A stretch of 64,000 nucleotides of DNA from Calothrix sp. NIES-4105 (GTDB lineage Bacteria; Cyanobacteriota; Cyanobacteriia; Cyanobacteriales; Nostocaceae), in NCBI RefSeq assembly GCF_002368415.1, contig NZ_AP018290.1:3423614-3487613 (forward strand), in the 5' to 3' direction. Of this stretch, positions 6,286-27,369 are shown piece by piece; position 1 is the stretch's first letter; each line of letters begins with the position of its first letter. Below the pieces are notes generated by a model. The model had not been told where the DNA came from and searched no databases. It saw only the letters and a list, made by a program, of their open reading frames with translations. A program made the translations under genes and the position numbers.

Positions 6286-6470
6286 GGTAAAACCATAAAA
6301 ACTGACTAGATATAAGGCAATTATGAGTAACAATAATGGCTATTTATGCGTAGAAAGCTTGTATATTTAACGCTAATAAATACTTATTTTTGGTACCATC
6401 ACCGTAATTGCCATAAGACATCTTGAAGCTTATTTATGTACACACAACAATAATTAGGTTAGTTAAAGAT

Positions 6471-8306
6471 ATGACTACTACAATTCAATGCCCAACATTT
6501 AAACCTACTCTGAGAGTTGGTAATAAAGGGCAAGATGTCAAAGATATGCAAAAACGTCTTAATGATAGATTTGCTTCAATTTACACTCCAGCTTTTAAAA
6601 TTATTGTTGATGGTGATTTTGGTTCACAGACTGAAGCTGCGGTTAGATTCCTTCAATGTCTTGCTTTTTTACCTGTGAATAGTATCACTGATGCAACAAC
6701 TTGGAATTTTATCTGCAATGGCGCCGCAGGAATGCCTATTTTAAAACTTAATAGTTCTGGAAATGTAGTTCAAGCCGTACAACAAGCTTTGTTTGAATCT
6801 AATTTCTACAATGGCGCCATTGACGGTATCTTCGCTAATCAGACACAGCAATCTGTCAAAAACTTCCAAACGTCTCAAGGTTTAACAGTCGATGGTGTTA
6901 TTGGTGTTAATACTTGGACTGCTTTAATTAAGCTTGATAGTCATATTGAGCGCTGCTACTACTTGAACAATTCTGTAGTTATTCAATGGAATAACATTTA
7001 CTTGGAAGCAGTGCGTAAATTAGGTGGCGCCCCTGGTCCAATTTCTCGTATGGGAGCAATGATGCATATTGCCATGTTTGAGGCAGTTAATCTACTTTTT
7101 GGCAGCCCCTACGAATCATATCTGCCTAACGCAAAATTACCCTCTGTGGTTAAAGGTGCAGACCCTGCCCTTGCTGCTGCCTATGCTGCCTATAAAGTGT
7201 TACTTGTCACAATTAAACAACAGCTACAAGAAGTAAATAATTCTACAGCTTTCTCACCGGAGTCATTTTTAATTGAGCGCACGCAACCACTTCGCATAGG
7301 AGCGCGAGTAAGTAGTCAGTCGCGCACTTTTGGCGAAGCTATCGCCGATGCAATTTTGAGAGAGCGTTCTAATGATGGCTCACAACAGGCAAACACGCCT
7401 CCAGTTGTGAAGTTTGGTTTTACACCTGGTGATTGGCGCCCAACAGATTCAAGCCCAGCAGCGACACCGCAGTGGGGTAAAGTAAAACCATTCGGTGGCT
7501 GGCAATTGAATCAAGTCGGTGATTTCTTACCAAAAGCATTGAACATCAATAAGTTCAGCAACTACGACCAGTTGCTCAAAAGCCGAGAATATGCAGAGCA
7601 AGTTAATGAAGTGCAGCGGTTAGGTAAAGCAGATTCTTCTGAAAGAACTCAAGAACAAACTGAAATCGCCTTCTTCTGGGCAAATGACCTAGATGGTACT
7701 TATAAGCCACCTGGTCAGCTTTACGACATTACACAGATTGTGGCAAGACAAGAAGGTGTTGAAAAAAATCTACTTGATACAGCCCGCTTATTTGCACTCG
7801 TTGGAATCGGTATGGCTGATGCAGCTATTATTGCTTGGTATGTGAAGTATCTGTTTCCTTCCGAGAAAAATCCCAATAACTTAATCCGACTATGGCGCCC
7901 AGAATCGGCGATACGTTTAGCTGATTCAGACAACAACCCTAAAACAGTAAAAGACCCCAGTTGGCAACCGCTTTCAGCCATGCGAGATGGTACACGCTTC
8001 TCACCGGCTTTTCCCGCTTATATTTCTGGACATGCCACATTTGGCGCCGCTCATGCAGTAATGATGCGTGAGTTCTTTGGACGAGATGCAATTGCTTTTA
8101 GCGCCACAACTGAAGACCCTAACGCTCCACGTGGTATATCCCGTAGGTTTACCAGCTTCACTGAAGCCGCATTAGAAAATGGTCGTAGCCGCATTTATCT
8201 CGGTGTCCACTACCAGTGGGATGCTGACGGTGGCTTTGAGTCAGGCACTCTTGTAGCTGAGTTTGCTTTCAACTGTGTATTGCGTAAGAAAAACAATGCA
8301 ATTTGA
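6471..8306 (+). CDS. Fusion: two peptidoglycan-binding domains plus vanadium-dependent haloperoxidase
   Basis: The start chosen is ATG 6471 (MTTTIQCPTF) because the paralogue at 10838 begins identically; the frame itself opens at 6423. Residues 10-145 hold two PG_binding_1 repeats (QDVKDMQKRLN with VDGDFGSQTEAAVRFLQ, and NVVQAVQQALF with GAIDGIFANQTQQSVKNFQ). The remaining 460 or so residues are a vanadium chloroperoxidase/PAP2-like domain with WYVKY (Lys), LWRPESAIR (Arg), PAYISGHATFG (Ser-Gly-His) and RIYLGVHYQWDADGG (Arg, His). These correspond to the vanadate-binding set of the family. Such enzymes use peroxide to oxidise halides. Fusion to wall-binding repeats suggests anchoring at the cell wall, although no signal peptide is visible. 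Whether it is a halogenase or a phosphatase is not decided by sequence. Confidence 0.85.
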   Translation: MTTTIQCPTFKPTLRVGNKGQDVKDMQKRLNDRFASIYTPAFKIIVDGDFGSQTEAAVRFLQCLAFLPVNSITDATTWNFICNGAAGMPILKLNSSGNVVQAVQQALFESNFYNGAIDGIFANQTQQSVKNFQTSQGLTVDGVIGVNTWTALIKLDSHIERCYYLNNSVVIQWNNIYLEAVRKLGGAPGPISRMGAMMHIAMFEAVNLLFGSPYESYLPNAKLPSVVKGADPALAAAYAAYKVLLVTIKQQLQEVNNSTAFSPESFLIERTQPLRIGARVSSQSRTFGEAIADAILRERSNDGSQQANTPPVVKFGFTPGDWRPTDSSPAATPQWGKVKPFGGWQLNQVGDFLPKALNINKFSNYDQLLKSREYAEQVNEVQRLGKADSSERTQEQTEIAFFWANDLDGTYKPPGQLYDITQIVARQEGVEKNLLDTARLFALVGIGMADAAIIAWYVKYLFPSEKNPNNLIRLWRPESAIRLADSDNNPKTVKDPSWQPLSAMRDGTRFSPAFPAYISGHATFGAAHAVMMREFFGRDAIAFSATTEDPNAPRGISRRFTSFTEAALENGRSRIYLGVHYQWDADGGFESGTLVAEFAFNCVLRKKNNAI

Positions 8307-8325
8307 TACGCGCGTCAACAGTGAA

Positions 8326-8354
8326 GTACTACTGGTTCGGAGTTAACCAGTAGC
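8326..8354. terminator. GTACTACTGGTT hairpin between convergent genes
   Basis: GTACTACTGGTT and AACCAGTAGC form an imperfect stem around a short loop. The same hairpin family is found at 12469-12498, 18745-18774 and 24074-24104. Here, and in the last two of those places, it sits between two convergent genes, so it may act as a two-way terminator. Confidence 0.5.
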
Positions 8355-8408
8355 AAAAATAATCAATATCGGCGCCCCATAACTGACTGATAAAATGCCA
8401 ACAAAACC

Positions 8409-8437
8409 GTAGAGACGCAATTAAATCGCGTCTCTAC
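8409..8437. repeat. GTAGAGACGC inverted repeat
   Basis: This is a perfect 10-base stem (GTAGAGACGC / GCGTCTCTAC) with a 9-base loop, followed by a TTTTTTACAATTTATATAGG tail. A shorter copy with the same tail lies at 45244-45273. It is probably a dispersed repeat, and here it lies in the convergent gap between the haloperoxidase and lipoxygenase genes. Confidence 0.6.
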
Positions 8438-8514
8438 TACGACATCGTTTTTTACAATTTATATAGGAATGGTGTATAATGGCGCCAGATGTAATACTAC
8501 ATTTAAGTGCAGCT

Positions 8515-10431
8515 TCAACCACTTACGCTATTAGACATCCGAGAGGGAAGAAACGCCGGGTAGCATTCTTCGCGACGTTGATTTTGTGCTTCAATCCGTT
8601 TTTCTATTGATTCTAAACGATTTTGGAAATCTCTAAGAACTCTAATGGCTTGCGGGTCTTGAAAACTGTTCACACCAAAATCAGTAAATGCTTTTGGGTC
8701 GCGCTTGGTACCGACTAACGACATAAACTGAACTTGGGTAAGGCTTGGTTTGATTCCAGGTAGGAAACTAGTAAGGCTGTTTTCGTCAGCGAATTTCCCT
8801 TTAGTTGTAGGAATAGGCTGATAAATAGCTCCAGGCATATTAGGAATAAAAGCCATATATTGATATTGAGTCCAAGCAATGGCTGAGTGTTGGGGACCAG
8901 CAGTGAAAATAATTATTGTCAAAATGTCTATCAATTGGTCGCGGTTTGTCAGGTTTGCTGGTAATGAAACTATACCAAAACCACCTTCGCTCTTTGGTTT
9001 CCGTAAAACTTGGAACCAATTTTGTAGCTCGAAATCCTCGCGGATATCTCGGTTAGATTTATAGTAAATACCGATATATTTACTTACATAGTCTTCTAAA
9101 GCATTCCAAACGAGCAACCCGTCGTCTCGATAAGGAAAATCTGGTAAGGTATAAGGATTATCAACACCGCGCTGACGTAAATTAGTAGGAAGTGCAAAGC
9201 TGCTAAAGTTGTTGAAAAAGTCAGCTACACCTGTATCGGTAAGTTTTAGCGAGCTTTCTAAAGTACCCGGTAATATAATATCTACTGCTCCGCCCGGATT
9301 AATTAGCACTTCATCACCAAGGCTATTAATTGCCATTGTAAACTCAAAGTGAGGCTTTAAGAGTACGTTTACGGGATGCTTCGCAGCTAGTTCGCGCGCT
9401 GTTGCTAAAGCAATTGGCTCCATTACTAGATGAGTCTGTCCCAAGTGCCGATATAACTGATTGACGTAGAAATCAGCCATTTGGGTTATTAACTTGGCTA
9501 AAGTCCAATCTACTCCATCATTTGGTGTGCAAAGTAAACTTGAACCCGGCGCCTGTCCTAACTGGATAGCAATGGGGATTAGCTGAAAATCGCCACGAAT
9601 TCTTTGGGCATAATAGAGTGCAATGGGGGCACAAACAAATTGCTTTTCTTTCGGCTGAATGCTATCAAGTATTGCATAATCGGTAACAAATAAGCTGCCT
9701 TCTCGAATAGCGCTGTTGAGAGTCTTATTAATGCGCTCTCTGGTTCTTGTCGCATTTAGCACAGCTTGAAAAATTTCATCTGTTATGGCGAGTTTGCTAC
9801 GAAGATTATAATCAAGTGCTAGAACGTTCTTTAGTTCCATCGGGTTACAGCCAGAAAGCCTCTGTCGTGCGAATACCGAATCATTACGGAATGTTTTAGC
9901 GATATCGGGTAGCGGCAAAACGGGAAACAGCGCGCTGTAATCATCGAAGCTTTGAAAAGGTTTGGGGTTTTGTAAAAACGCTTGTTGATTGGCTCCTATC
10001 TTCTGCGATAAGATTACTCGGTTCTTCTCGTATCCTTCAGAAAATAATTCAGTCGCGGGTAAAGTCTTCACGCGAGCAGAATTAGGCAACCGCAACCCCA
10101 ACTGATATTCTTCACGAGTCTTTCCCAACTGCGTCAGGCGTTCTTGTTGAGTCGCTTTTGTATCATTTTGAGGTAAGCTTGGGATGCTAGGATTATTTGG
10201 TGGCTTAGGTTTTGAGGGTTTATTGTCATTAGATAGTAAAGTTTCCAAACCGGGAGTACAACCATTCGGATTATCCAATTGCTTAGGTTTTGAGGATTTA
10301 TTGTCACCGACTAGTAAAGTTTCCAAACCAGGAGTACAAGCGAAGGCCATCAGCGCCATCATGGTACGGCGCGATAATACATACTGCTCAATTAACTCTT
10401 GTCGTCGTTGTTTTGGAGTTGGTGATCTCAT
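8515..10431 (-). CDS. Bacterial lipoxygenase with altered fourth iron ligand
   Basis: This 638-residue protein inserts O2 into polyunsaturated fatty acids (oxylipin formation). The signature region NQLYRHLGQTHLVMEP, then ELAAKHPVNVLLKPHF, gives iron ligands His329 and His334 and the structural His352 and His361. The third ligand is His515 in GPQHSAIAWTQYQY, and the C-terminus SNSVSG matches the family's NSxSI end. Two departures are visible: the position of soybean Asn694 (H+4) is Ala519, and the last residue is Gly instead of Ile. The N-terminus has SRRTMMALMAFAC, which may be a weak Tat- or lipoprotein-like signal, followed by a duplicated 26-residue segment. It converges on the haloperoxidase. 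Confidence 0.88.
   Translation of the reverse strand: MRSPTPKQRRQELIEQYVLSRRTMMALMAFACTPGLETLLVGDNKSSKPKQLDNPNGCTPGLETLLSNDNKPSKPKPPNNPSIPSLPQNDTKATQQERLTQLGKTREEYQLGLRLPNSARVKTLPATELFSEGYEKNRVILSQKIGANQQAFLQNPKPFQSFDDYSALFPVLPLPDIAKTFRNDSVFARQRLSGCNPMELKNVLALDYNLRSKLAITDEIFQAVLNATRTRERINKTLNSAIREGSLFVTDYAILDSIQPKEKQFVCAPIALYYAQRIRGDFQLIPIAIQLGQAPGSSLLCTPNDGVDWTLAKLITQMADFYVNQLYRHLGQTHLVMEPIALATARELAAKHPVNVLLKPHFEFTMAINSLGDEVLINPGGAVDIILPGTLESSLKLTDTGVADFFNNFSSFALPTNLRQRGVDNPYTLPDFPYRDDGLLVWNALEDYVSKYIGIYYKSNRDIREDFELQNWFQVLRKPKSEGGFGIVSLPANLTNRDQLIDILTIIIFTAGPQHSAIAWTQYQYMAFIPNMPGAIYQPIPTTKGKFADENSLTSFLPGIKPSLTQVQFMSLVGTKRDPKAFTDFGVNSFQDPQAIRVLRDFQNRLESIEKRIEAQNQRREECYPAFLPSRMSNSVSG
10204..10339. 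repeat. 78-bp tandem duplication inside the lipoxygenase gene
   Basis: Bases 10204-10261 and 10282-10339 are nearly identical (period 78), starting CTTAGGTTTTGAGG. The repeat encodes the doubled segment CTPGLETLL...DNK.SKPK near residues 32-75. The length is a multiple of three, so the frame is kept and only the N-terminal linker is lengthened. Confidence 0.8.
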
Positions 10432-10837: not shown

Positions 10838-11353
10838 ATGACTACTACAATTCAATGCCCAACATTCAGACCTACTTTGAGAATTGGTAACAATGGACAA
10901 GATGTTAAAGAGATGCAAAAGCGTCTTAATCAAAGATTTGCTTCAATTTACACTCCAGCTTTAGAAATCCCAGTTGATGGTGATTTTGGTTCACAGACTG
11001 AAGCTGCGCTTAAATATCTCCAATGTCTTGCTTTTTTACCTGTAAATGGTATCACCGATACAACTACCTGGAATTTTATCTGCAATGGTTCTGCTAGCTT
11101 ACCTACTTTAAAACTTAATAGTTCTGGAAACGCAGTTCAGTCCGTTCAAAGAGCTTTGTTTATATCCAATTTTTATAATGGCGCCTTTGATGGTGTCTTT
11201 GGTACCAAGACGGCACAAGCTGTCAAAGACTTCCAAACCTTTTATGGTTTGACAGTCGATGGTGTTATTGGCGCCAATACTTGGACTACTTTAATCAAGC
11301 TCGATAGCCATATAGACCGCTGCTACTGTGATTATTACGGTGGCGGTTGTTAG
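10838..11353 (+). CDS. Two-repeat peptidoglycan-binding protein, paralogue of the fusion's N-terminus
   Basis: All 171 residues align with the first 155 or so of the haloperoxidase fusion at 6471: same start MTTTIQCPTF, the same two PG_binding_1 repeats (VDGDFGSQTEAALKYLQ and GTKTAQAVKDFQTFYGLTVD), and the same end KLDSHIDRCY. It then stops after CDYYGGGC, without a catalytic domain. It probably binds cell-wall glycan. It arose by duplication of the fusion gene or is the donor of the fusion's N-terminus; the two copies bracket the lipoxygenase gene. Confidence 0.85.
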   Translation: MTTTIQCPTFRPTLRIGNNGQDVKEMQKRLNQRFASIYTPALEIPVDGDFGSQTEAALKYLQCLAFLPVNGITDTTTWNFICNGSASLPTLKLNSSGNAVQSVQRALFISNFYNGAFDGVFGTKTAQAVKDFQTFYGLTVDGVIGANTWTTLIKLDSHIDRCYCDYYGGGC

Positions 11354-12232: not shown

Positions 12233-12468
12233 TTGTTTAATTAGAATTTTTAACCTAAATCACTAGTGATAAAAAATACTTTCTGTATACAAATAATTGG
12301 AATTAAAAATCACATTATACATATACAGATACTACTAGCAGAGTAATTTGCTAGCATATGTATTTTAGAAAACACATATACCTTTTGACAGTACCCGTCG
12401 GGGTACTATTAATACGCCTCGGATTAATTTATAATCAGGCGCCTGCTTTCGCATCGCGCTTAAATACA

Positions 12469-12498
12469 GTACTACTGGTTAATTTAAACCAGTAGTAC
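12469..12498. repeat. GTACTACTGGTT hairpin copy
   Basis: GTACTACTGGTT and AACCAGTAGTAC form a perfect 12-base stem with a 6-base loop. It belongs to the family described at 8326. This copy lies in the repeat island and not between convergent genes. Confidence 0.75.
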
Positions 12499-12828: not shown

Positions 12829-13108
12829 ATGTTCACTTCTTAAAAATTCTTTCTTTGTGTCCTTTGTGTCTTTGTGGTTCATTCCTCCAACTCCCCAAAA
12901 TTAATGACACAAACTACTAGTAGCACCAAATATAAGCTATTTCAAGCCAGATAATGCTTTTGTTCTATATAAGTGTTAACCAGTAGTACCAAAAATAAGG
13001 AATTTAAAGTATTATAATGCTTTTGTTCTATATAAGTATTAACCAGTAGTACTTACTTGGCGCCAGTTGAATAATCATCGTGAATGCAGTACCACTAGTT
13101 AAAGTTAA

Positions 13109-13273
13109 CTGACCGGAATGCACTTCTACGTATAAAAACTGAATATAAAAAATCTACGTTTTTAATATTACTTATATTATTAATCCATTTTAATGGATTT
13201 CAACTATTAGCCTATGGGTTTTAACCATAGGCGGTTATAAGCGTAGTTAAAAATTTGGCAATTAATATTACAT
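13109..13273. mobile_element. MITE-like element, copy A
   Basis: This non-coding unit of about 165 bases begins CTGACCGGAATGCACTTCTAC, contains small hairpins such as TCCATTTTAATGGA and the GCCTATGG / CCATAGGC pair, and ends near AATATTACATA. Copy B with the same order of blocks lies at 22295-22461. It has no ORF, so it would be mobilised in trans or be a structured RNA repeat. Confidence 0.55.
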
Positions 13274-13279
13274 ACTGCG

Positions 13280-14101
13280 TTATTTTAGTATGGACGCTAA
13301 ATGTACTGCATAAGAGCGAGTCAGAGGTGGCAAAATAGCCATAAGCAAGCGGGCATTGAAAGAGAAGCGTTTCTTAAACTCTGGAAAATGCCAGATATAC
13401 CGAGAATCAGTAATTTTGTATCGAGAGTCCCAAGCTTCTATATCTTTAATATTCTTGATACCCCATTGGAATTTTGCAGAAGTGTGTTTTACTGCTTCGT
13501 AGCTTCTGCGGTTTTTGATAATAAATGGTGAAGCAGCATCAAATACTAGATACGAACCTGGGAATTCCTGCGCTAAGATTGCAAAGAGTGTTTTTACCTG
13601 TTCCTCTGTAAAGTAAAGCAATACCCCCTCAGCAATAAATAATTTTGGTGAATTTGGGCTATTTTGTTTGACCTGATTTATCCATTCTGGTTCTAGCACA
13701 GAACCGCTAATGAAATGTCGGCGCCCGCTTTCTTCAAAGAAATGTCTTCTTACAGCTATTGCATCAGGCAAATCTAAATCAAACCAATACAATTGTCCGT
13801 TATCAAGCCGCTCAAATCGAGTATCCAAACCGGCGCCAATTTCCACGATTGTAGATTGTGGATTTTGTTGGATAAAATGTTGTGTCAATTCGTCAATAGC
13901 TTTACCTCGAATGCACATCATCACCTGGGTGCTTTTCGCTGCTTTAAACTTGTCGAAATCATAATCTAGTTGAGAAACTATTTCTTTGGCTTTTGCATCG
14001 TACAATATCGGTTTTGGCTGACTTGCTTCTACCGCGCGCGACCATAGAGGGATTAATAAAGTTTCTTGAACTATTCCCAAATTTACTGTTTGTTTATTCA
14101 T
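13280..14101 (-). CDS. PPM1/LCMT-family (TcmP-like) carboxyl O-methyltransferase
   Basis: This class I SAM methyltransferase of the leucine-carboxyl-methyltransferase family has VEIGAGLDTRFERL (SAM loop), YWFDLDLPDAIAVRRHFF and FIAEGVLLYFTEEQVKTLF, the three family blocks. Members such as PPM1 and TcmP methylate carboxyl groups to esters. The start at 14101 is preferred because its ATG overlaps the stop of the upstream oxygenase by 8 bases (ATGAATAA), implying translational coupling; an in-frame ATG at 14119 is the alternative. Its place directly behind a carotenoid oxygenase and opposite an aldehyde dehydrogenase suggests that an apocarotenoic acid is its substrate, which is inference. Confidence 0.82.
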   Translation of the reverse strand: MNKQTVNLGIVQETLLIPLWSRAVEASQPKPILYDAKAKEIVSQLDYDFDKFKAAKSTQVMMCIRGKAIDELTQHFIQQNPQSTIVEIGAGLDTRFERLDNGQLYWFDLDLPDAIAVRRHFFEESGRRHFISGSVLEPEWINQVKQNSPNSPKLFIAEGVLLYFTEEQVKTLFAILAQEFPGSYLVFDAASPFIIKNRRSYEAVKHTSAKFQWGIKNIKDIEAWDSRYKITDSRYIWHFPEFKKRFSFNARLLMAILPPLTRSYAVHLASILK

Positions 14102-15566
14102 ATTTTTTAAATATTCCATGAAATCCCAAGGGAATTACACTCGGTAATCCTAATTTACAAACAGGTTCATCATCTAGATGTTCGCTGTCAAAAATCCATA
14201 CTTCGCTTGTGTGGTTATTGCCATCATAAACTATTGTTAAAAGCCACCCTGATTGGGGATTTATAGGATTTGCTACGTAGGTAGGTTCTAAAGGATAACG
14301 GTTCTCTCCTAAGTCGGCAATTGTCAAAGAATCGGTTTTGTAATCAATACGCGCGATAGCATTAAAAAATTCCTCTGTGGTATTCGTTCCTTTTCCAAAT
14401 CCCAAAAAATATGTATATTGCCATTTCTGTCCAGTTTCTAACGGTGATACCATTGGAAATTCAGCTAAATGATTATATCCTTTCTCAACTGCCTTTACCT
14501 TGCCTGTTTTAGGATTCAAAATTAACTGCCATAATCCTGATTTTGTTGGTGTTTGTAGCTCTCCAGTTGGCAATTCCTTTAGACGTTGATTGATATTAAA
14601 GTCTTCATAGCCAGCAAAATCTATCATTACCATACCGTTATCATCTACATAGCCGTTACCAAAGTGCCAAAGAAAAAATCCTTCAGTTTCATTACGGCTA
14701 ACTAGAGATAAGGTTTGTTTATCAAATACCAAAATTTGTGTTCCTGATTTCGGTTCCCAGGTCATAGAATTACCATAACTACGCAATCCTAAACCAACAG
14801 GCAATCCATGTACTTTAACTGGAGGAATGAAAAATATGAGATATTGCCCAGCTAACACGAAATCATGTACTAAAGGAAGCCAATCAAGGGGAAATGCTTT
14901 TGATACTAATATTTTACCAGTAGAGTCAGATTTATAAAGATTCAAACTACCTTTGAATTTACCTGTGACACCAAAATTAAAAATCTCTCCGGTTTGAGGG
15001 TCGCGTTTGGGATGTGCGGAATAAGTTAAACCCCCTTTTAAGGCGCCTAAATTATCTATACCTTTTGTTTCTAACGTTTCTAAGTCGAGTGCATGGGGTT
15101 TACCACCCTCCCACAACGCCAAAAGCTTATCGGGTAAAGCGATAACAGCAGTGTTAGCGACATTTTTTAGGGGTCTTAAGAAGTGATTCCAGAATCGTCC
15201 AGGTGCAATCATTCCATAATTGCCATACAAAAGTTTGCCCGCTACGACTTCATGTTGATACCCCTTGGTTTGTACGTAGCGGTATAAACCAGTGGCGCCA
15301 TCATCACCAAAATGAACCCTAAGAATTGCTCCATCGCCATCAAACCAGTGTCCTACATGGATACCACCACGAGAGAGGCGCCCTGGTCCAATGCGATAAA
15401 GTGTACCCCGTAAACATTCTGGTATTTTGCCTTCTAAAACAGGCAAAGGTGTGGGGGGAAACTCTTCACCTGGTTCGACAATCGCCTGCTTCCAAGCTCT
15501 ATGTGTATTTTTTAACTCTTTTCCTAACTTAGTTTCAAAATCTAAAAATGCTGAGTTTTGTACCAT
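14094..15566 (-). CDS. Carotenoid/apocarotenoid cleavage oxygenase (RPE65/ACO family)
   Basis: This is a 490-residue non-haem iron dioxygenase, the same length as Synechocystis apocarotenoid oxygenase. The four iron-binding histidines are all found: His185 (SAHPKRDP), His234 (PLVHDFV), His301 (FLWHFGN) and His483 (PLGFHGIF). The second-shell Glu369 (HLAEFP) and the early blocks GTLYRIGPGRLSRGG and HWFDGDGAILRV are also present. It would cleave a double bond of a carotenoid or apocarotenal and release aldehydes. It forms an operon with the methyltransferase and diverges from a CrtI-type gene; the 106-base gap between 15566 and 15673 must hold both promoters. The cleavage position cannot be read from sequence. 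Confidence 0.9.
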   Translation of the reverse strand: MVQNSAFLDFETKLGKELKNTHRAWKQAIVEPGEEFPPTPLPVLEGKIPECLRGTLYRIGPGRLSRGGIHVGHWFDGDGAILRVHFGDDGATGLYRYVQTKGYQHEVVAGKLLYGNYGMIAPGRFWNHFLRPLKNVANTAVIALPDKLLALWEGGKPHALDLETLETKGIDNLGALKGGLTYSAHPKRDPQTGEIFNFGVTGKFKGSLNLYKSDSTGKILVSKAFPLDWLPLVHDFVLAGQYLIFFIPPVKVHGLPVGLGLRSYGNSMTWEPKSGTQILVFDKQTLSLVSRNETEGFFLWHFGNGYVDDNGMVMIDFAGYEDFNINQRLKELPTGELQTPTKSGLWQLILNPKTGKVKAVEKGYNHLAEFPMVSPLETGQKWQYTYFLGFGKGTNTTEEFFNAIARIDYKTDSLTIADLGENRYPLEPTYVANPINPQSGWLLTIVYDGNNHTSEVWIFDSEHLDDEPVCKLGLPSVIPLGFHGIFKKYE

Positions 15567-15672
15567 AAATCTTAAAAATTTAAATAACTATGAAATTTGT
15601 TATTAAATGCCCTCTATTGGGAATCTTAAGTCTATAAAGATACTAATGTTTCAGTAATATCCACAAAATATT

Positions 15673-17160
15673 ATGAAGATTGTGATAATTGGTAGTGGAT
15701 TCGGTGGTTTATCTGCAGCGATTCGACTACAGGCACAAGGACACAAAGTCACACTGGTAGAAAAGCAGTCAGAACCTGGCGGTCGTGCTTATGTGTATAC
15801 TCTAGATGGTTTTACCTTTGATGCGGGACCAACAATCATTACAGCGCCCTATTTGCTTGATGAATTATTCCAAATCAATGGGAGAAGAGTAGAAGATTAT
15901 GTGCAACTAGTTCAGCTTGACCCTTTTTACAACATTCGTTTTAGTGATGGGTCAGTTTTTCACCTTACTGGCAACCGCGAATATATTTTGCAGCAGATTC
16001 GCTCGTTTAATTCCCAAGATATTCAAGGCTATTATCGCTTTGAGCAAGCTTTGGAGAAAATTTTCAAAAAAGTTATGCCACTGATGGAACAACCGTTGAA
16101 CAATTTTTGCGAATTGATAAAATTTGCTCCTAACATAATTGGTTTACAGCCTTTACAATCGGTTGCTAGTTTCGTTAATCAATATTTTCAAGATGAGCGG
16201 CTACAACAAGTTTTTAGTTTTCATCCTCTTTGGATAGGTAGTAATCCCTTTACAACTTCTTCAATCTTTACCACAATTCATGAATTGGAAAGAAAGTTCG
16301 GTGTATGGTTTGCTATGGGAGGAACAGGAGCCTTAGTTAATGCTTTGGTGCAACTTTTTTGTGAACTTGGGGGTAAGTTATTACTCAATACACCAGTAGC
16401 TGAAATTGCAATGAATTATAAAACTGGTTATGCCACAGGCGCCATTTTAGCGAATGGTAAATATTTACCATCTGATATAGTTGTAAGTAATGCTGATGTC
16501 GCTTTTACTTATATGAATTTAGTGCCAGCAAAGTTTCGACATCATTATAGTCTTAGTAAATTTGAACGAATGCGTCATTCAATGTCTGTGTTTGTGATTT
16601 ACTTTGGTACAAATCGTCGTTATCAGCATATGGCACATCATGAAATGCTGATGGCGCCTGAATATCACAACTTTATGCAAGACATCTTTGAACGTAAGCA
16701 TTTACCGTCATACTTTTGTTTGTACTTACATCGTCCAACTGCTACCGATGCGTCATTAGCACCCCTTGGATGTGAGTCTTGGTATGCTCTTGTCCCCGTG
16801 CCAAACTTAAGTGGACAGACAGACTGGGAAGCAAACTCCAAGCCATTTCGGAATAAAGTAATTCAGCATCTTGAACACTGTTATTTGCCAGATTTATCAA
16901 AACATATAGTCACCGAGCATAGTATTAATCCTTTATATTTTCGCGATACACTCAACAGTTTCCAAGGAAGTGCTTTTGCAATGGAATCAACTTTTAGACA
17001 GTCTGGTTGGTTTCGTCCGCATCATCAAAGTGAAGATATTCCTAACCTATATTTTGTAGGCGCCGGAACTCATCCAGGTGCAGGACTGCCAAGTGTGATG
17101 ACTTCTGGCAAAATTGTCGCACGAATGATTGGCAAAGCTGGGGAAAGCGCCAATAGTTAA
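15673..17160 (+). CDS. CrtI-type carotenoid desaturase/oxidoreductase
   Basis: This 495-residue FAD protein has the N-terminal dinucleotide motif VIIGSGFGGLSAAIRL and EPGGRAY. Its C-terminal CrtI signature is NLYFVGAGTHPGAGLPSVM followed by TSGKIVARMI, with FTFDAGPTIITAPYL near the substrate entrance. This is the bacterial phytoene/diapophytoene desaturase family (CrtI, CrtN, CrtD, CrtO). Most cyanobacteria desaturate phytoene with CrtP, CrtQ and CrtH, so a CrtI-type protein beside a cleavage oxygenase and an ALDH more likely serves a specialised carotenoid. It is followed after 27 bases by the ALDH gene, probably in one transcript. Which family branch it belongs to needs a tree. Confidence 0.87.
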   Translation: MKIVIIGSGFGGLSAAIRLQAQGHKVTLVEKQSEPGGRAYVYTLDGFTFDAGPTIITAPYLLDELFQINGRRVEDYVQLVQLDPFYNIRFSDGSVFHLTGNREYILQQIRSFNSQDIQGYYRFEQALEKIFKKVMPLMEQPLNNFCELIKFAPNIIGLQPLQSVASFVNQYFQDERLQQVFSFHPLWIGSNPFTTSSIFTTIHELERKFGVWFAMGGTGALVNALVQLFCELGGKLLLNTPVAEIAMNYKTGYATGAILANGKYLPSDIVVSNADVAFTYMNLVPAKFRHHYSLSKFERMRHSMSVFVIYFGTNRRYQHMAHHEMLMAPEYHNFMQDIFERKHLPSYFCLYLHRPTATDASLAPLGCESWYALVPVPNLSGQTDWEANSKPFRNKVIQHLEHCYLPDLSKHIVTEHSINPLYFRDTLNSFQGSAFAMESTFRQSGWFRPHHQSEDIPNLYFVGAGTHPGAGLPSVMTSGKIVARMIGKAGESANS

Positions 17161-17187
17161 ACTCAAATATTATCATTTTTATAAACT

Positions 17188-18576
17188 ATGATTTATCAAC
17201 TGTCAATATCAGATATTATTTGCAAACAACGCAAATTTTTTCAAAGCGGTACAACTAAAGATTTTGCTTTTCGTCTTGCTCAAATAAAAATCCTTAAGCA
17301 AGCGATAATTCAACATCAAACAGATATTACACATGCCTTATTAGCTGATTTAAACAGAGCAGAAGTTGAAACTTATGGGACAGAAATACTGTTGATACTT
17401 AGCGAAATTGATTATGCAATTAAAAATCTAAAACAATGGATGCAGCCACAAAAATTAGCGACTAGTATCCAACAGTTTCCTGCCTCAGCACGCATTTACC
17501 CGGAACCACTTGGAGTAGTTTTAATTATTGGGGCTTGGAATTATCCATTTCAGTTGACTTTATCACCATTAGTAGGTGCAATTGCAGCGGGTAACTGTGC
17601 CATCATCAAACCATCAGAATTAGCGAGTAATTGCTCTAGAGTCACAGCCGAAATTATCAGCAAATCTTTTGCTTCAGAGTATATTAGTGTAGTAGAAGGA
17701 GGTGTAGAAACTAGTCAACTACTGCTAGCAGAAAAATTTGACCATATATTTTTTACTGGTGGAACAGCGATTGGTAAAATTGTTATGGAAGCTGCTGCAA
17801 AACATCTAACACCAGTAACTTTAGAATTGGGCGGAAAAAGTCCTTGTATTGTAGATGCTGATACTAACATTGAATGTACCGCCCAACGCATTGTATGGGG
17901 TAAGTTTCTTAATGCTGGACAAACTTGTGTGGCGCCTGATTATCTGTTAGTCAATAAAAACATCAAACCTCAATTGTTAACTGCTATTCAAAAAAGTATC
18001 AAAGAATTTTATGGCGATAATCCAGCAAAAAGTCTTGATTATGGCAGAATCATCAATCACAAACATTTTGACAGACTAGTTAACTTTTTGCAAGATGGTA
18101 ATATTTGTATAGGCGGAGAAAGCAACAAGAACGAATGTTATATTGCTCCCACCGTCATAGATAATATTTCCTTAACTTCGGCAGTCATGCAATCAGAGAT
18201 TTTTGGACCCATCCTGCCAATAATTGAATATAGTGATATCAACGAAGCTATAAGCATCATTAACTCTCAACCAAAACCCTTGGCTGTATACTTATTTTCT
18301 CAAAATAAAAAACTGCAACACCGAATTTTACAAAACACTTCATCAGGAGGAGTTTGTATTAATGACACCGTGATGCAAGCTGCTGCTTCTGGATTACCAT
18401 TTGGTGGTGTAGGTGATAGCGGTATCGGTCGCTATCATGGTAAAACTAGTTTTGAAACTTTTTCCCATTACAAAACCGTACTGCAAAGGTCTTTTTTATT
18501 TAATATAAAGCTACGATATGCTCCTTATAAAGGAAAATTGCAATGGCTGAAGAGAATTGTCGGTTCAAATATTTAA
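17188..18576 (+). CDS. Aldehyde dehydrogenase, class 3-like (fatty/apocarotenal type)
   Basis: The 462-residue enzyme has the catalytic Glu213 in LELGGKSPCIVDAD, the nucleophile Cys247 in NAGQTCVAPDYLLV, and the cofactor segment IIGAWNYPFQLTLSPLVGAI. The C-terminal block INDTVMQAAASGLPFGGVGD is that of ALDH3-type, membrane-associated dehydrogenases which oxidise long-chain aldehydes with NAD(P). It is 27 bases behind the CrtI-type gene. In Neurospora the equivalent trio (CrtI, cleavage oxygenase, ALDH) turns apocarotenals into carboxylic acids; the same role is inferred here. It could instead oxidise fatty aldehydes. Confidence 0.88.
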   Translation: MIYQLSISDIICKQRKFFQSGTTKDFAFRLAQIKILKQAIIQHQTDITHALLADLNRAEVETYGTEILLILSEIDYAIKNLKQWMQPQKLATSIQQFPASARIYPEPLGVVLIIGAWNYPFQLTLSPLVGAIAAGNCAIIKPSELASNCSRVTAEIISKSFASEYISVVEGGVETSQLLLAEKFDHIFFTGGTAIGKIVMEAAAKHLTPVTLELGGKSPCIVDADTNIECTAQRIVWGKFLNAGQTCVAPDYLLVNKNIKPQLLTAIQKSIKEFYGDNPAKSLDYGRIINHKHFDRLVNFLQDGNICIGGESNKNECYIAPTVIDNISLTSAVMQSEIFGPILPIIEYSDINEAISIINSQPKPLAVYLFSQNKKLQHRILQNTSSGGVCINDTVMQAAASGLPFGGVGDSGIGRYHGKTSFETFSHYKTVLQRSFLFNIKLRYAPYKGKLQWLKRIVGSNI

Positions 18577-18584
18577 TTTCTTAT

Positions 18585-18709: not shown

Positions 18710-18744
18710 CTTATATGGCGCCAGTTGAATAATCCGTCATGACA

Positions 18745-18774
18745 GTACTACTGGTTAACTTAAACCAGTAGTAC
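18745..18774. terminator. GTACTACTGGTT hairpin between convergent genes
   Basis: The perfect 12-base stem GTACTACTGGTT/AACCAGTAGTAC with loop AACTTA lies 6 bases from the stop of curA and between curA and the converging ALDH gene. It is the same family as 8326 and 24074. The position suits a bidirectional terminator. Confidence 0.55.
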
Positions 18775-18779
18775 TAAAG

Positions 18780-19817
18780 TCAAGCAACTTTGACAATTAA
18801 TTTACCTATTTTGTTGGCATTAAAAAGTTTTAGAATTTCCTTTGGTGCCTTTTCTAAACCTTCAACTATTTCATACTCCTGTTTTATTTTTCCTAATTTC
18901 GTCCATTCCCCAAGTTCCTTAATTGCTTCATGCCAACGATTATGATAATCACTAATGATAAATCCTTGTACCCGCAAACGCTTCATCAAAATCAAATTAA
19001 AGTTTAATGGTCCTGGTACTGGTTGGGTAGAGTTATAAGTTGAGATTAAACCACATAGGGGAATGCGCGCGAACAGGTTTAGATGCGACATCACTGTATC
19101 TAAGATTGAACCGCCGACATTATCGAAATATATATCAACACCATTTGGGCAAGCGTTTGCTAATGCGGTGTTTAGGTCGGTAGTTTTATAGTTGATTGCT
19201 GCGTCAAAGCCAACAGAAGTTAACCATTGGCATTTCTCATCAGAACTTGTAATTCCGACTACACGGCAGCCTTTAATTTTAGCAATTTGTCCTACCACTG
19301 AACCGACGGCGCCTGCTGCCGCTGAAACTACAACGGTTTCTCCTGGTTTTGGTTGTCCTATATCTAACAAACCGAAATAAGCAGTGACACCAGTTGGACC
19401 TAATTGACCCACCGCAGCAAATAATGGGTCGGGTAAAGGTGGATTAATTTTAGTTATAAAGTTTGCCTGTTCATCTTTTAATAATACATAGTCCTGCCAA
19501 CCTAAAAGTCCTGTAACGTAGTCTCCTGGTTGTAAGTTGGGATTTTTAGATTCTTCTACAACTCCAATTGCGACACCCCGCATTACTTCGCCTAACTCTA
19601 CTGGGGGCATATACTGCGCCATGTCGCTCATCCAAATGCGGTTAGTTGGGTCAAGTGATAAATATAGATTTCTCACCAGTACTTCGCCTTGGTTGGGAGT
19701 TGGGACAGGCGCCTCTTTATACTCAAAATCACTTTCTTTGATATCTCCAACCGGACGACAAGCAAGCAGGAATTGCCGATTTACTCTTTTTGGTGTGTTT
19801 TCTACATTAGTACTCAT
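18780..19817 (-). CDS. curA: NADP-dependent MDR oxidoreductase (CurA / alkenal double-bond reductase type)
   Basis: The 345-residue zinc-free medium-chain reductase has LSLDPTNRIWMSD near the N-terminus, the cofactor motif VVSAAAGAVGSVVGQIAKIKG and YFDNVGGSILDTVM. These are the hallmarks of NADPH-dependent curcumin/prostaglandin/alkenal reductases. Members reduce the C=C bond of alpha,beta-unsaturated aldehydes and ketones in the cytoplasm. It converges on the ALDH of the carotenoid cluster. A role in removing enals released by the carotenoid or lipid oxygenases nearby is plausible but inferred. Confidence 0.87.
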   Translation of the reverse strand: MSTNVENTPKRVNRQFLLACRPVGDIKESDFEYKEAPVPTPNQGEVLVRNLYLSLDPTNRIWMSDMAQYMPPVELGEVMRGVAIGVVEESKNPNLQPGDYVTGLLGWQDYVLLKDEQANFITKINPPLPDPLFAAVGQLGPTGVTAYFGLLDIGQPKPGETVVVSAAAGAVGSVVGQIAKIKGCRVVGITSSDEKCQWLTSVGFDAAINYKTTDLNTALANACPNGVDIYFDNVGGSILDTVMSHLNLFARIPLCGLISTYNSTQPVPGPLNFNLILMKRLRVQGFIISDYHNRWHEAIKELGEWTKLGKIKQEYEIVEGLEKAPKEILKLFNANKIGKLIVKVA

Positions 19818-19867: not shown

Positions 19868-19940
19868 CCCCACCCACAACGAGTGTAGGGTGGGGATGGA
19901 TAGCAGTAAAATAGTAGGGTTCAATACCCTACTATTTTAC
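19868..19940. mobile_element. Left-end hairpins of the IS605-like element
   Basis: Two hairpins stand in tandem. CCCCACCC (19868-19875) pairs with GGGTGGGG (19888-19895), and a perfect 15-base stem GTAAAATAGTAGGGT/ACCCTACTATTTTAC (19906-19940) encloses TCAAT and includes the tnpA stop codon. IS200/IS605 transposases recognise subterminal hairpins; the second stem may alternatively end the tnpA transcript. The exact left boundary is not determined. Confidence 0.5.
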
Positions 19941-20350
19941 TCTCTCCCACCTGATTGATTTTGGATGTATTGCTTCACTGTTTCTAACGGAGCGCCACCA
20001 CAAGACACAATGCATTTTGAATCGTGCCAAAGTTTAGCTTTCCCCCAGTAGTATTTATCAATTGTAGATTTATATCGTTCTCTCAATATTCTACTGCTTG
20101 CTGATTTTAGGGATGCGATCAAATCAGAAATATTATTGTCTGGATGCAAATCAATAAGTAAATGCACGTGGTCTGGTTCACCATTACAATCCTCTAAGTT
20201 AGATTTATTTGCTACCAGTACACGATCAAAAACTTCTTTCATGTCTTCAATCATTTGGTTTGTAAAAACCTTGCGCCGATACTTTGTCACAAATACTACA
20301 TGCAGGTGAATAGAAAAAACAACGTGTGACCCGCTTCTCAAATTAGTCAT
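19937..20350 (-). CDS. tnpA: IS200/IS605 family Y1 transposase
   Basis: This 137-residue HUH-superfamily single-strand transposase has the metal-binding motif DHVHLLIDL and the catalytic Tyr in VKQYIQNQ near the C-terminus, with the family start VVFSIHLHVVFVTKYRRKVF. It would cut and rejoin single-stranded IS ends by a 5'-phosphotyrosine intermediate. It is divergent from tnpB (IS605 layout) and appears intact, so the element may still be mobile even though tnpB is broken. Confidence 0.93.
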   Translation of the reverse strand: MTNLRSGSHVVFSIHLHVVFVTKYRRKVFTNQMIEDMKEVFDRVLVANKSNLEDCNGEPDHVHLLIDLHPDNNISDLIASLKSASSRILRERYKSTIDKYYWGKAKLWHDSKCIVSCGGAPLETVKQYIQNQSGGRE

Positions 20351-20497
20351 AAAGATTTCTTATCATATCTAAGAACTATGGTATATTAATTGTAGTCAAC
20401 AACATCGAGTCAAACAAGTCAATCAAAGCGATTATTGACTGGTGAAGTGTATTGGCTATATCGGGTGATAGAAATTTGTTGTATTTTGGGAGTAATT

Positions 20498-22013
20498 ATG
20501 ACTTTCAAAAGTAAAGAGAAAAAAGAACAAGATAAGGAGAAGAATAAAAATACGTATGTATCAACTGTTGTGCAGCATCTAAAACTATCAAGTCTTGGGT
20601 ACGCTGTAGTATCTGATATTTTGGAACACGCGAACAGTTTGTATAACACCTTGACCTACAACTTGAGACAAGGTTTTTTTGTATACAACACATTAAATTT
20701 TCAGTCTATAGCTTATGATTTGCAGACTGATTTCAAGGAAAATTACCATTACAAAATGCTGCAATCACAGGCTGCACAGTCTGTATGTCATAAAGTGGCT
20801 GAGAATTTTAAGTCATTTAAGCAACTTTTGGATAAGCATTATATTGATGGTTCTAAAAAACCCAAGCTACCTGGTTATCGTATCCCTGGAGGTATGTTTG
20901 AGGTTACTTACCCAGCGTCATCCGTTAAGATTGGGGTCGAGCATGGGATAAGATTTGCGTCAGTTTCAACAGGTTTGTTATTCAAAAAGCGGCACAAAGA
21001 AGATGTAGTAGGTACTCATCTAAACGAATATATAAAGTTTAGAGTACCCGACGCTGTTGATATAACAACGCTTGTTGAGTTAACTATTACCTCAAAACAT
21101 GGTGAAATCTATTTACATTGGGTGTGTAGAAAGATTCAAGAAACTGTTGCAACATTAGATAAATCAAATGTTTTAGGAATAGATATTGGCTTGAATAACT
21201 TTGTAACCTGTATTCCTAATACTGGAGAACAAGGTTTTATCATAAATGGAAGACCGTTAAAAGCGATAAATCGGTTTTATAACAAAACCGTATCGAAGTT
21301 GAAAAAAGGTAAAGATGAAAATTTTTGGAGTGGTAGTTTAGCTAGAGCTACACAAACTAGAAACAACCAAGTGCGTGATTTTCTCAAAAAATCTGCTCGT
21401 ACAATAATTAACAAATGCTTAGATTCAGGGATAGGAAAAATAGTATTTGGTTGGAACGAAGGCATCAAGAATGAGATAGATAACGGACGTGTCAATAATC
21501 AGAATTTCGTACAGGTGCCGTTCACCACATTACGCGACACACTCAAGTATCTGTGTGAAAGATACGGGGCGCGAATTTGTAGTTGTTGAAGAATCTTACA
21601 CCTCAAAAATGTCATTTTTTGATGGTGATGAATTACCCGTATACGGTGAACCAGCCACACGTGCGGCGAGCCAAGCCAGTGGACTGGTGAACCCGAAGGG
21701 TAAAGAAACCGAAGCCCAGAAGGAACAAAAACCTTCTGGTAAAAGAACAAAACGTGGAGAATACAAAACAGGAAACGGAATAATTGTAAATGCCGATGCC
21801 AACGGTGCATCAAATATTTTGAGGAAAGCAAAAATTGACATATCCAAAATTACTTTTCGGGTATGCCAAGTCATAGCTAAAATCAATATTTGGGTAGGCA
21901 ACAAACGTAAAGGTACGGCAGCTAGCGGCGAAGCTCGCCGGGTAGAAAATTCTGTCCGGCAGACTTCGCCGTCTAGTTGTACGACTATAGGAGCAACTGA
22001 ACCTGCTCAGTAA
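20498..22013 (+). pseudogene. tnpB: IS605-type TnpB, frameshifted near the RuvC-II site
   Basis: Start ATG 20498 follows GGGAGTAATT. The first frame carries RuvC-I (NVLGIDIGLNNFVTCI) and ends at 21589. The remainder, from EFVVVEESYTSKMSFFDGDE (RuvC-II Glu) through RGEYKTGNGIIVNADANGAS (RuvC-III Asp), lies in the next frame from about 21570. One extra base in the run GGGGCGCG near 21565-21573 explains the break. Between RuvC-II and III an unusually GC-rich, Ala/Glu/Lys-rich stretch (21650-21755) is inserted where relatives have a shorter loop. TnpB is an RNA-guided nuclease; this copy would be truncated before two of its catalytic residues. Confidence 0.85.
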
Positions 22014-24549: not shown

Positions 24550-27186
24550 CTACACTTCACCTAAATCACTAATTTGTAGCAAATCTAACCCCTGCTCAAA
24601 TATTTCATCAATAGGCGCCATTTTCCCATCTGTTGTCATAAACTTATGGTCTTGAGTCGCTCTAATAACGGCACCATTTTCTAACTCATACTCAAACACT
24701 TCTTGGCGCCCACGATTATGCCATTGAGCAATAGGTTGTGTATAAACAATTCCATTATTATCAACAGTAAATACAGAACATTCAATTTCTTTTTCTACAA
24801 TTTCACCTATTTTTAAATATCCATACTCAACTGTTAATATTTCTGTATCGTAGCTTAGGCAATATTCTGCAAACTTAAGCATTTGCTCAAATAGGTCTTC
24901 TGCAACTTGGTGCTTAACACCATTTTTAGCGGCGCCATCAATAAATTTTTCACGTTGTTTCTGCATTTCAGAAACTTTCTTTTTACCCATCGCGCGTCTT
25001 AACAAGTCAGCTTGACCTAATGTATAGCCAGCCATATCTTGAGCCATTTTCATAATTTGCTCTTGATAGCAAAGCACCCCATATGTTTCTTCCAAAATAG
25101 GTTCAAGTAAACTGTGCCCATATTCAACTTTCTCTCTACCATGTTTACGGTTGATAAACTGTGGTATTAATCCAGCGTCTAAAGGTCCTGGTCGATATAG
25201 TGCTAAAATAGATGAAATATCTTCAATATTAGATGGCTTTAAATCGCGTACTATTTGCCGCATCCCAGAAGATTCTAATTGAAAAACTCCTTCTAATTCA
25301 CCTGATTCTAATAACTCAAACGTCTTTTTAACGTCATTAGGCAATCTTGCAGCTTCTCCACCTTTTGCGAGTATTCTTTGCGCTTTACGTTCTAAAGAAG
25401 TAATATCATATGGGTCAAGCTTACATTTATGATTTTCCTGGATTAAATCAATAGCATTTTGAATCATTGTCAGGTTTTTCAAACCCAAAAAGTCCATCTT
25501 CAACAAACCAATTGAGTCTAAATCTTCCATGTAATATTGAGTTATCACCGAACCGTCGTTATTACGCTGTAATGGTACAATCTCATCTAATGGTTCGGCA
25601 GAAATTACTACACCCGCAGCGTGTACACCAAAGGTTTTATTTGTTCCCTCAATACGTATTGCCATATCAAGCCAATGCTTAACCCTAGGGTCATTGTCGT
25701 ACTTCTCTTTAAAATCCTGTGATGGAGTATCGTCGGCAATCATTTTACTAAGCGGTGTTGGTTTACCGCGCGATACCGGGATTAATTTTGCCATTTTATC
25801 TGATTCCCCATAGGGAATATTTAATACCCTGGCAACGTCTTTCAATACTGATTTTGATGTAAGACGGTTAAAAGTGATAATCTGTGCAACTCTTTCGGCG
25901 CCATATTTACTTGTAACATAATCAATAACTTCATCACGCTTAGAGATACAGAAATCTGTATCAATATCAGGCATCGATTTACGTTCAGGATTAAGGAAAC
26001 GCTCGAATAATAACCCGTGGTGTACAGGATCAATATTAGTAATACCCATTGAGAACGCAACTAATGAACCTGCAGCCGAACCTCTACCTGGCCCCACAGC
26101 TATTTTATTATCTCTAGCAAACTTAATGTAATCCCACACAATTAAAAAGTAGCCAGAGAACCCCATTTGTTGAATCATTTTTAATTCATATTCCATCCGT
26201 TCTCTATAAGTAGGGTCTAACTCGCTTCTAGTTCTACACCGCTGCTTTTCGAGTATTCCCTGCCAAGCTACTTCTTCAACATACGTATCGGTAGTATGTC
26301 CAGGTGGAATTGGATAATTAGGAATACGAGGTTCACCAAGAATGTCATATTGCTCAACTTTATCAGCAACTTCTTCGGTATTATTTATTGCTTCTTCAAT
26401 AACGTCATCAGGTAAATGGTCACGGAATAGTTGCCGCATTTCGGACTCTGATTTTAAATACTCAGTACCGCTATACCGCATCCGGTTATCTTCGACAATT
26501 AATTTACCCGTTTGAATACACAGCAATGCGTCGTGAGCTTCAACATCAAAACAAGAAATAAAATGCGAGTCATTTGTTGCAACAATCTTTATACCAAGCT
26601 CGCGCGCAATCTTGACAATTTCAACGTTGACAATTCTATCTTCTTGTGAACCGTGATCTTGAATTTCTAAGTAAAAATCATCTCCAAATACATCTTTATA
26701 CCATTGTGCTACTTTACGCGCGGCATCTGGTCTATTACTCATAATCGCTTGTGGTATTTCTCCACCCAAACAAGCGCTAGTAACTATCAAGTCCTCATGA
26801 TATTTTTGTAATAATTCTTTATTTATACAAGGACGCGAAAAAATACCTTTACCTTGTACACCCTCAAGATGCGATATCGATGTTAATTTAACTAAGTTTT
26901 TATAACCCTTCGTACTTTTCGCTAAAACGACTTGGTGATACTTAGGGCGCCGCTCTTGTTTGGTAATATCACCGTTGATAATATACATCTCATTGCCAAT
27001 TATCGGCTTAATAGTCTTACCCCGGCAAATCTTAATCAACTCAACCGCACCGTACATCACACCGTGGTCGGTCAAGGCAATTGCTTTCATCCCTAGTTCG
27101 ATAGCACGGTCTATCAATTGGGGCAACTGACTGGCGCCATCTAACAAGCTGTAGTCACTATGAATGTGTAAAGGTACGAAAGACAT
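24550..27186 (-). CDS. dnaE: DNA polymerase III alpha subunit, N-terminal half ending in split-intein N
   Basis: The start at 27186 ([20 protein letters not shown]) is the canonical DnaE N-terminus; the longer frame upstream is not homologous. The protein has the PHP domain, the polymerase catalytic core ([20 protein letters not shown] and PDIDTDFC, with the catalytic Asp pair) and the family block [18 protein letters not shown]. It stops after LKFAEY, where [16 protein letters not shown] starts the 103-residue N-intein. The C-terminal half, with the C-intein, must be encoded elsewhere. Protein trans-splicing then gives full DnaE, the replicative polymerase. This split is typical of cyanobacteria. 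Confidence 0.97.
24553..24861 (-). other. Split DnaE intein, N-part (103 residues)
   Basis: It follows extein KFAEY and begins with the splicing nucleophile Cys1. Block B reads [10 protein letters not shown] (Thr and His of TxxH), and the C-terminal end is [12 protein letters not shown]. It is closely similar in length (103 against 102) and motifs to the well-known Nostoc punctiforme DnaE N-intein. Confidence 0.95.
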
Positions 27187-27369
27187 AATATTAACATTAT
27201 ATATAAATAACCCAACTGAACATTGCTGCCCAGCTAGGTGATATATTATATGCCCGGACGCCCTTATTGACTCAATGAATGTAATCAAAAAAAATAAAAC
27301 CCCTGTACTTATATGAAACAAAACGTCTCGTTTGTGAATACAAATGTTTTAGCTTTATTGCCTATGAAT

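Follow-up and report, generated by a model that had tools for sequence, protein, structure and literature searches.

The fungal neurosporaxanthin pathway employs the desaturase AL-1 and the aldehyde dehydrogenase (ALDH) YLO-1 and, to our knowledge, contains no methyltransferase. In that pathway, a CrtI-class desaturase, a carotenoid cleavage oxygenase (CCD; CAO-2/CarT, whose step is taken from an excerpt of PMC5133782) and an ALDH together give an apocarotenoic acid. In the bixin pathway of Bixa orellana, a linear carotene is cleaved, the aldehyde is oxidised to an acid and the carboxyl group is methylated, as outlined in parts of two papers (PMC8874276, PMC8702529), the first of which places the candidate methyltransferases in the SABATH family. 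Bacterial acyclic carotenoic acids carrying sugar or methyl esters also exist, as in Rubritalea (excerpt of PMC3967232). Cyanobacteria possess many carotenoid cleavage enzymes, and few products are known. Here we describe a block of four genes, encoding a CCD, a CrtI-type desaturase (CrtI), an ALDH and a methyltransferase (MT), within a 64,000-nucleotide stretch of DNA from Calothrix sp. NIES-4105 (the window; host genome, 12.0 Mb). We put at roughly one in two the probability that the block works as a single co-regulated cassette whose product is an apocarotenoid acid, probably capped as a methyl ester. Searches of openly licensed papers turned up no account of the cluster that we recognised.

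Four genes in two divergent pairs

The block (13280-18576) consists of two divergent gene pairs flanking 106 bp, with CCD and MT on the minus strand and CrtI and ALDH on the plus strand:

13280..14101, minus strand: MT, an LCM (PPM1/LCMT1/TcmP-type) S-adenosylmethionine-dependent methyltransferase, 273 amino acids from the conserved Met
14094..15566, minus strand: CCD (PF03055, four His, own clade), NosDiox2/NSC3-like by elimination, a paralogue of the genus-wide copy
15567..15672, no strand: divergent intergenic region of 106 bp, near-invariant in two congeners, presumed shared control region of both pairs
15673..17160, plus strand: CrtI-type phytoene desaturase (TIGR02734, Pantoea CrtI match, GSGFGG motif), additional to the genome's CrtP
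17188..18576, plus strand: ALDH (PF00171, GQTC and ELGG) from a group widespread in cyanobacteria, probably the one to which slr0091 of Synechocystis belongs

All four open reading frames (ORFs) were found where a sequence-only reading had placed them, and matches above the Pfam and NCBIfam cut-offs support the enzyme classes it had assigned. The 8-base overlap it described between CCD and MT is correct with the MT start at the 7th codon, whereas the first ATG (14119; 279 amino acids) would give 26 bases; we place the start at the 7th codon because its Met is kept in at least 90% of 53 aligned sequences. The gaps of 27 bases between CrtI and ALDH and of 106 bases between the divergent pairs are likewise correct. 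In the nearest named relatives at the locus, Dulcicalothrix desertica PCC 7102 (L006) and Calothrix sp. PCC 7716 (L007), taken as the congeners G437 and G442, the divergent gap has the same length, the CrtI-ALDH gap measures 44-45 bases and, in one of the two, a 37-base gap replaces the CCD/MT overlap. The motifs GSGFGG (CrtI), GQTC and ELGG (ALDH) and GAGLDTR (MT) are all retained.

The CCD matches PF03055 (RPE65) at 411 bits (Pfam cut-off 27). We take H185, H234, H301 and H483 to be its iron ligands. All four align with the corresponding residues of Synechocystis ACO (PDB 2biw) and, together with the family match, uphold the description of the protein as a four-His carotenoid oxygenase. The host genome encodes five CCDs, and two identities were rejected for the one in the block: an ACO/NosACO orthologue, at 213 bits to 2biw versus 674 for the genome's ACO-like CCD (L002), and a CCD1-like enzyme, at 115 bits to the carotenoid 9,10-dioxygenase 9m3e versus 393 for the genome's CCD1-like paralogue. 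Elimination of these paralogues provisionally assigns the protein to the NosDiox2/NSC3 group, in which, according to excerpts of PMC5133782, all4895 of Nostoc PCC 7120 (NosDiox2/NSC3) acted on torulene and C30 polyenes and not detectably on lycopene; NSC3 gave no product from lycopene, cleaves torulene and seemingly also cleaves "3,4,3',4'-tetrahydrolycopene", which we take to mean tetradehydrolycopene. The cluster CCD forms a clade of its own (SH-aLRT 100), separate from the genus's other copy of NosDiox2/NSC3 type, to which it is 53-55% identical.

The desaturase scores 125 bits against PF01593 and, at 553 bits (cut-off 238), belongs to NCBIfam TIGR02734 (crtI_fam). It groups with CrtI proteins (460 bits to Pantoea CrtI, 4dgk, versus 219 to the gamma-carotene desaturase 4rep), in agreement with the carotenoid CrtI type first proposed for it, and was rejected as a CrtD/CrtID equivalog (NF045637, NF042421 and NF058655; 234, 223 and 330 bits versus cut-offs of 580, 500 and 640). 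The host genome carries a CrtP elsewhere (826 bits), and the cluster CrtI is therefore an extra desaturase. Relatives of CrtI adjoin, divergently, a squalene/phytoene synthase-family gene in two genomes, and, as stated in part of PMC7713294, members of several CrtI clades can carry the desaturation as far as tetradehydrolycopene. A second CrtI gene of the window's genome (L154; G000:C1:7195064-7200038), 60% identical to that of the cluster, lies beside a broken near-copy in two pieces, and related single copies occur in several congeners. A distant CrtI (L168, 44%), which adjoins phytoene synthase-like and cyclase-like ORFs, was set aside, its genome being marked 6% contaminated.

The ALDH matches PF00171 at 307 bits (Pfam cut-off 23) and, beyond the block's own kin, is closest to cyanobacterial ALDHs, at about 68-73% identity. 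It probably belongs to the widespread cyanobacterial group of slr0091; a second copy of the same group in the host genome is 64% identical to it, and the cluster ALDH forms its own clade, separate from the genus's other copy. Work by Trautmann in 2013 is said to have found that slr0091 converts apocarotenals and alkanals, and the enzyme is reportedly induced by high light. Work by Miles in 2019 is said to have found that a cyanobacterial ALDH makes retinoic acid from retinal in vitro, while an excerpt of PMC9501733 concludes that enzymes for the conversion of retinal to retinoic acid are absent across the phylum.

The make-up of the host genome bears on a different role for the block, namely turnover or detoxification under light stress. 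CCD and ALDH would then clear damaged carotenoids and apocarotenals, MT would blunt the acids and CrtI would rebuild the pool, with no dedicated product. The presence of five CCDs in the genome speaks for this role, as do the high-light induction and the activity on apocarotenals and alkanals reportedly found for slr0091, but the cell already has another ALDH of this group and four further CCDs at its disposal, and clearance does not obviously need an added CrtI and methyltransferase. We regard this explanation as rather unlikely.

MT scores 59 bits against PF04072 (LCM; cut-off 22.3) and is a member of that Pfam family. Its predicted structure adopts the PPM1/LCMT1/TYW4 fold, and the best function-known matches of the model are carboxyl methyltransferases, a class that presumably includes TYW4. 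The titles of the matched structures name carboxyl methylation for PPM1 and LCMT1. The modelled fold supports the proposal that MT is of TcmP/PPM1 type, a putative carboxyl methyltransferase, and does not point to a non-carboxyl class. We note that one relative of MT (L171, G084:C4:15000-32000, at 7632-9786) lies, as read by eye, between flavodoxin-like and hydrolase-like ORFs and near chlorophyll-binding-protein-like ORFs, a setting that is perhaps an iron-stress operon.

Distribution, conservation and surroundings of the block

Each of the four proteins was searched against seven genomes of the genus (G000, that of the window, and G437-G442). Orthologues of all four, at 90-96% identity, are present in G000, G437 and G442 and absent from G438-G441, in which the best relatives reach 54-56% (CCD), 63-65% (ALDH) and 60-61% (CrtI), with none for MT and, at the threshold used, none for CrtI in G440. 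From this common pattern of presence and absence in seven congeneric genomes, it follows that the grouping of the four genes is more than chance. The right-hand neighbour, an MDR reductase gene (18780-19817), occurs in five of the seven genomes in a pattern that differs from that of the block. Its presence in G438 and G439, which lack the block, led us to reject it as a pathway member.

The three carriers also inform two explanations that would divide the set. CrtI, CCD and ALDH may make an apocarotenoic acid while MT acts on another small acid or on a protein C terminus; relatives of MT in unrelated contexts favour this, as does the range of substrates in the family, from protein (PP2A) to a modified tRNA base (PPM1/LCMT1 and TYW4). 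We give it little credence, as MT overlaps CCD or follows it within 37 bases in all three carriers, and the two genes are present and absent together. Alternatively, CrtI and ALDH might yield an end-oxidised carotenoic acid from an uncut carotenoid, as in C30 pathways of the staphyloxanthin kind, with a separate role for CCD. CrtI-family enzymes and ALDH do occur together in C30 pathways, and CrtI and ALDH adjoin on one strand here, but no CrtNb-type terminal oxidase lies in the block and a CCD is part of it in 3/3 carriers; we consider this route very unlikely.

For the four-gene cassette that we prefer, the history of the block is best seen on a species tree built from four other genes, from which the G438 ALDH copy (diverged, with one TAA) was left out. 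On this tree a single clade of carriers is rejected (approximately unbiased test, p-AU 2.0e-6), and the presence of the block needs three changes, of which, one fork being weak, two are the safe minimum. The carriers are not a clade and, therefore, the four genes were gained or lost together more than once, at least twice.

The conserved DNA of the block (93-95% identity) starts near the MT stop (13280), at 13267 in the comparison with G437 and at 13290 in that with G442, and finishes at 18579, three bases past the ALDH stop; both limits are thus no more than about 15 bases from an outer stop codon. On the left side, the window has only short stretches and repeats in common with its relatives (177 nucleotides with G437, 76 with G442); on the right, the gap between ALDH and MDR shows identities of only 15% and 34% in the two congeners, and the flank in common consists of MDR and then a DNA polymerase III-like gene (24550-27321). 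Both G437 and G442 carry a class II aldolase gene to the left of MT, at a distance of 1.1-1.4 kb that contains a single short ORF. The non-carrier G438 has the same aldolase (98% identity with G437) and MDR (91% with the window) in the same orientation but no block: the two are separated by 3.7 kb that hold three transposase-type ORFs and one other ORF. This locus is an unoccupied or emptied site of the block.

Between the window and G437 or G442, synonymous divergence (dS) is 0.18-0.29 in the block, 0.30-0.60 in the four other genes and 0.35-0.40 in MDR. The lower values in the block are as expected if it had spread horizontally between lineages after their split, the alternative being constraint on synonymous sites. 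By these comparisons, the cassette was probably moved horizontally. A palindromic repeat (GTACTACTGGTT...AACCAGTAGTAC) of roughly 30 nucleotides flanks the block:

12466..12498, no strand: dispersed palindromic repeat left of the block, 0.8 kb from MT, with further AACCAGTAGTAC copies at 12978 and 13041
18742..18774, no strand: right-border copy of the dispersed palindromic repeat, 33 nucleotides, 97% identical to the left copy

Single arms of the repeat also lie at 8326, 12978, 13041 and 24093 of the window, and an arm occurs in 19 of 259 loci, as far as can be told all from this genus. Because copies are scattered through the loci of the genus, the repeat is only a possible recombination site for the block.

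All four genes show ratios of non-synonymous to synonymous divergence (dN/dS) of 0.09-0.20 in all pairwise comparisons (CCD, 0.13-0.15; CrtI, 0.10-0.20; ALDH, 0.16-0.17). The divergent region is identical at 106/106 positions in G437 and at 105/106 in G442, where dS is about 0.2; the chance of 0/106 changes is about 5e-11 at the dS rate and about 8e-4 at the 6-7% difference of coding DNA. In the aligned 6.7 kb, where 42 gap columns at the CCD/MT junction are counted under CCD, this region sits in the longest identical run versus G437 (140 nucleotides; the next, 86); versus G442 it sits in a run of 85 nucleotides, matched by an 86-nucleotide run in ALDH. Such near-invariance supports the suggestion that both pairs have the divergent region in common, and we presume that it is their shared control region. 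The inverted repeat TTAAATAAC/GTTATTAAA within it was rejected as an operator, as 186 of 300 mononucleotide shuffles held as many such pairs, and its 21 sigma-70-like sites are no more than shuffled sequence gives (mean, 21.5). Within the window no Rfam family attained the gathering score, and the host genome holds no second copy of the region beyond four weak matches of 24-37 bases.

Selection also bears on whether the four genes are chance neighbours that hitch-hike on one DNA segment. The carriers are three close genomes only, and dispersed repeats and transposases lie around the block, as hitch-hiking would have it. Against it stand the dN/dS of 0.09-0.20 in four genes with a nearly invariant region between them, and conserved DNA that stops near the gene ends while the left flanks share only short stretches. 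We hold chance neighbourhood to be extremely improbable.

Outside the genus, a pattern scan with CCD covered 84,980 species genomes, though it may miss records close to that of the window. Of the 98 loci confirmed we retained the best 80, and many of the contigs stop within 10 kb. The block is present in two of these 80, both congeners, and the other 78 hold one nearby distant ALDH (26%), one nearby MDR (48%) and none of the rest. The expectation that the four genes stay together elsewhere held within the genus (three carriers of seven) and was not borne out beyond it among the 80 CCD loci. Among 388 sampled genomes of the class, MT-like proteins occur in 48 (E 1e-20) and CrtI-like proteins in 75 (E 1e-40, with scoring of four candidates in each genome), and a CrtI of at least 52% identity in 14, the window's included. 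No match to CCD, MT or ALDH was found at the 11 CrtI loci read from 10 of the 13 other genomes (9-19 kb each, several cut by contig ends). Two matches, P0002 (CrtI, 80%) and P0124 (MT, 76%), each list two contigs, the longest of 9601 bp in both, so one more diverged block may exist in a metagenome. No ALDH with a contig of that length is among the 120 matches listed.

Several other features surround the block in the window. A lipoxygenase-family protein (8515-10431, minus strand; PF00305, 218 bits) is encoded 3 kb to the left and was rejected as a pathway member, as nothing in the stretches read near the blocks of the two relatives matches it. Further left, a protein at 6423-8306 (plus strand) combines peptidoglycan-binding repeats with a PAP2 / vanadium chloroperoxidase-like part, and the protein at 10838-11353 also carries peptidoglycan-binding repeats. 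To the right lies an IS200/IS605-type pair (19937-22013), with a Y1 transposase on one strand and, on the other, an OrfB-like gene whose frame is seemingly interrupted near 21590. The DNA polymerase III alpha-like protein at 24550-27321 (minus strand) weakly matches an intein splicing domain in its C-terminal part (28 bits, below the cut-off of 35.8), and is possibly the N-terminal half of a split dnaE intein gene product.

Proposed pathway

We infer from the gene set that the enzymes would act in sequence and under common regulation. CrtI would convert phytoene to all-trans lycopene or to didehydro- or tetradehydrolycopene, in parallel to the house pathway with CrtP; the NosDiox2-like CCD would cut that linear polyene to an apocarotenal; ALDH would oxidise the apocarotenal to an acid; and the LCM-type MT would cap the acid as a methyl ester. 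The 106-bp region would drive both pairs, and the cassette would move or be lost as a unit among close relatives. The pairing of CrtI and CCD is attractive because several CrtI clades can go to tetradehydrolycopene and NSC3 is active on torulene and seemingly on tetradehydrolycopene but gave no product from lycopene, according to excerpts of PMC7713294 and PMC5133782, respectively. As the cassette is compact, one apocarotenoid product becomes directly testable in two culture-collection strains, Dulcicalothrix desertica PCC 7102 and Calothrix sp. PCC 7716, and congeners that naturally lack the block can serve as controls.

A number of points weigh against this reading. MT scores 67.4 bits against TIGR00027, below the curated cut-off of 93.55, and the fold it has in common with LCMT1, PPM1 and TYW4 in the model reveals no substrate. 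Its relatives elsewhere sit in other gene contexts (three loci read by eye), and the LCM family is therefore not tied to carotenoids. The assignments of CCD and of ALDH to the slr0091 group come from elimination or neighbourhood, not from direct comparison. According to an excerpt of PMC9501733, the apocarotenoid ALDH could not convert retinal to retinoic acid; if CCD cut at 15,15', the resulting C20 product might consequently fail as a substrate. The strand pairing of CCD with MT and of CrtI with ALDH differs from the order of the steps, and the cassette occurs in three genomes of one genus only. Finally, between G437 and G442, dS is 0.21-0.28 in the block, 0.07-0.22 in the other genes and 0.26 in MDR; the block is not less diverged there, and horizontal spread is therefore read only from the comparisons with the window.

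Comparison with known systems

Among single enzymes, the cluster CCD resembles NosDiox2/NSC3 in its placement by elimination in the same group and differs in belonging to a clade distinct from that of the other NosDiox2-type copy in the genus. Likewise, the cluster ALDH is probably of the group of slr0091, which reportedly converts apocarotenals, whereas its lineage is separate from that of the genus's other copy. C30 carotenoic acids of marine bacteria arise by terminal oxidation, not by cleavage. The Rubritalea esters, which resemble the proposed product as bacterial acyclic carotenoic acid esters, have C30 aglycones.

The neurosporaxanthin pathway has the same three enzyme classes up to the acid. 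However, the fungal route uses torulene and removes a C5 piece, and its enzymes are likened to those of the cluster by class only. The bixin pathway matches all three steps from the linear carotene, but the plant methyltransferase candidates are SABATH proteins, whereas the cluster MT is of the LCM Pfam family and, in its model, of the LCM fold; the plant CCDs are of CCD1/CCD4 type and cut at 5,6, whereas the cluster CCD is NosDiox2-like by elimination; and in the cluster the desaturase is part of the unit. Of the bixin/neurosporaxanthin-type pathway put forward by the sequence-only reading, the reaction logic therefore stands, although MT is LCM and not SABATH and CCD is not CCD1-like; we regard the likeness as an analogy of reaction logic, not as homology or membership.

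It is possible, though on balance doubtful, that the cassette is a horizontally mobile version of bixin biosynthesis in bacteria, built from unrelated or distantly related enzymes (a hyper-desaturating CrtI in a host that already has CrtP, a polyene-specialised CCD, an ALDH and an LCM-type MT) and leading to a methyl apo-lycopenoate-like pigment or signal, of which we found no description for cyanobacteria. If the methyl ester proves true, the block would be the product of convergence in bacteria on a plant pathway for a commercial dye, and would offer a compact enzyme set for apocarotenoid esters.

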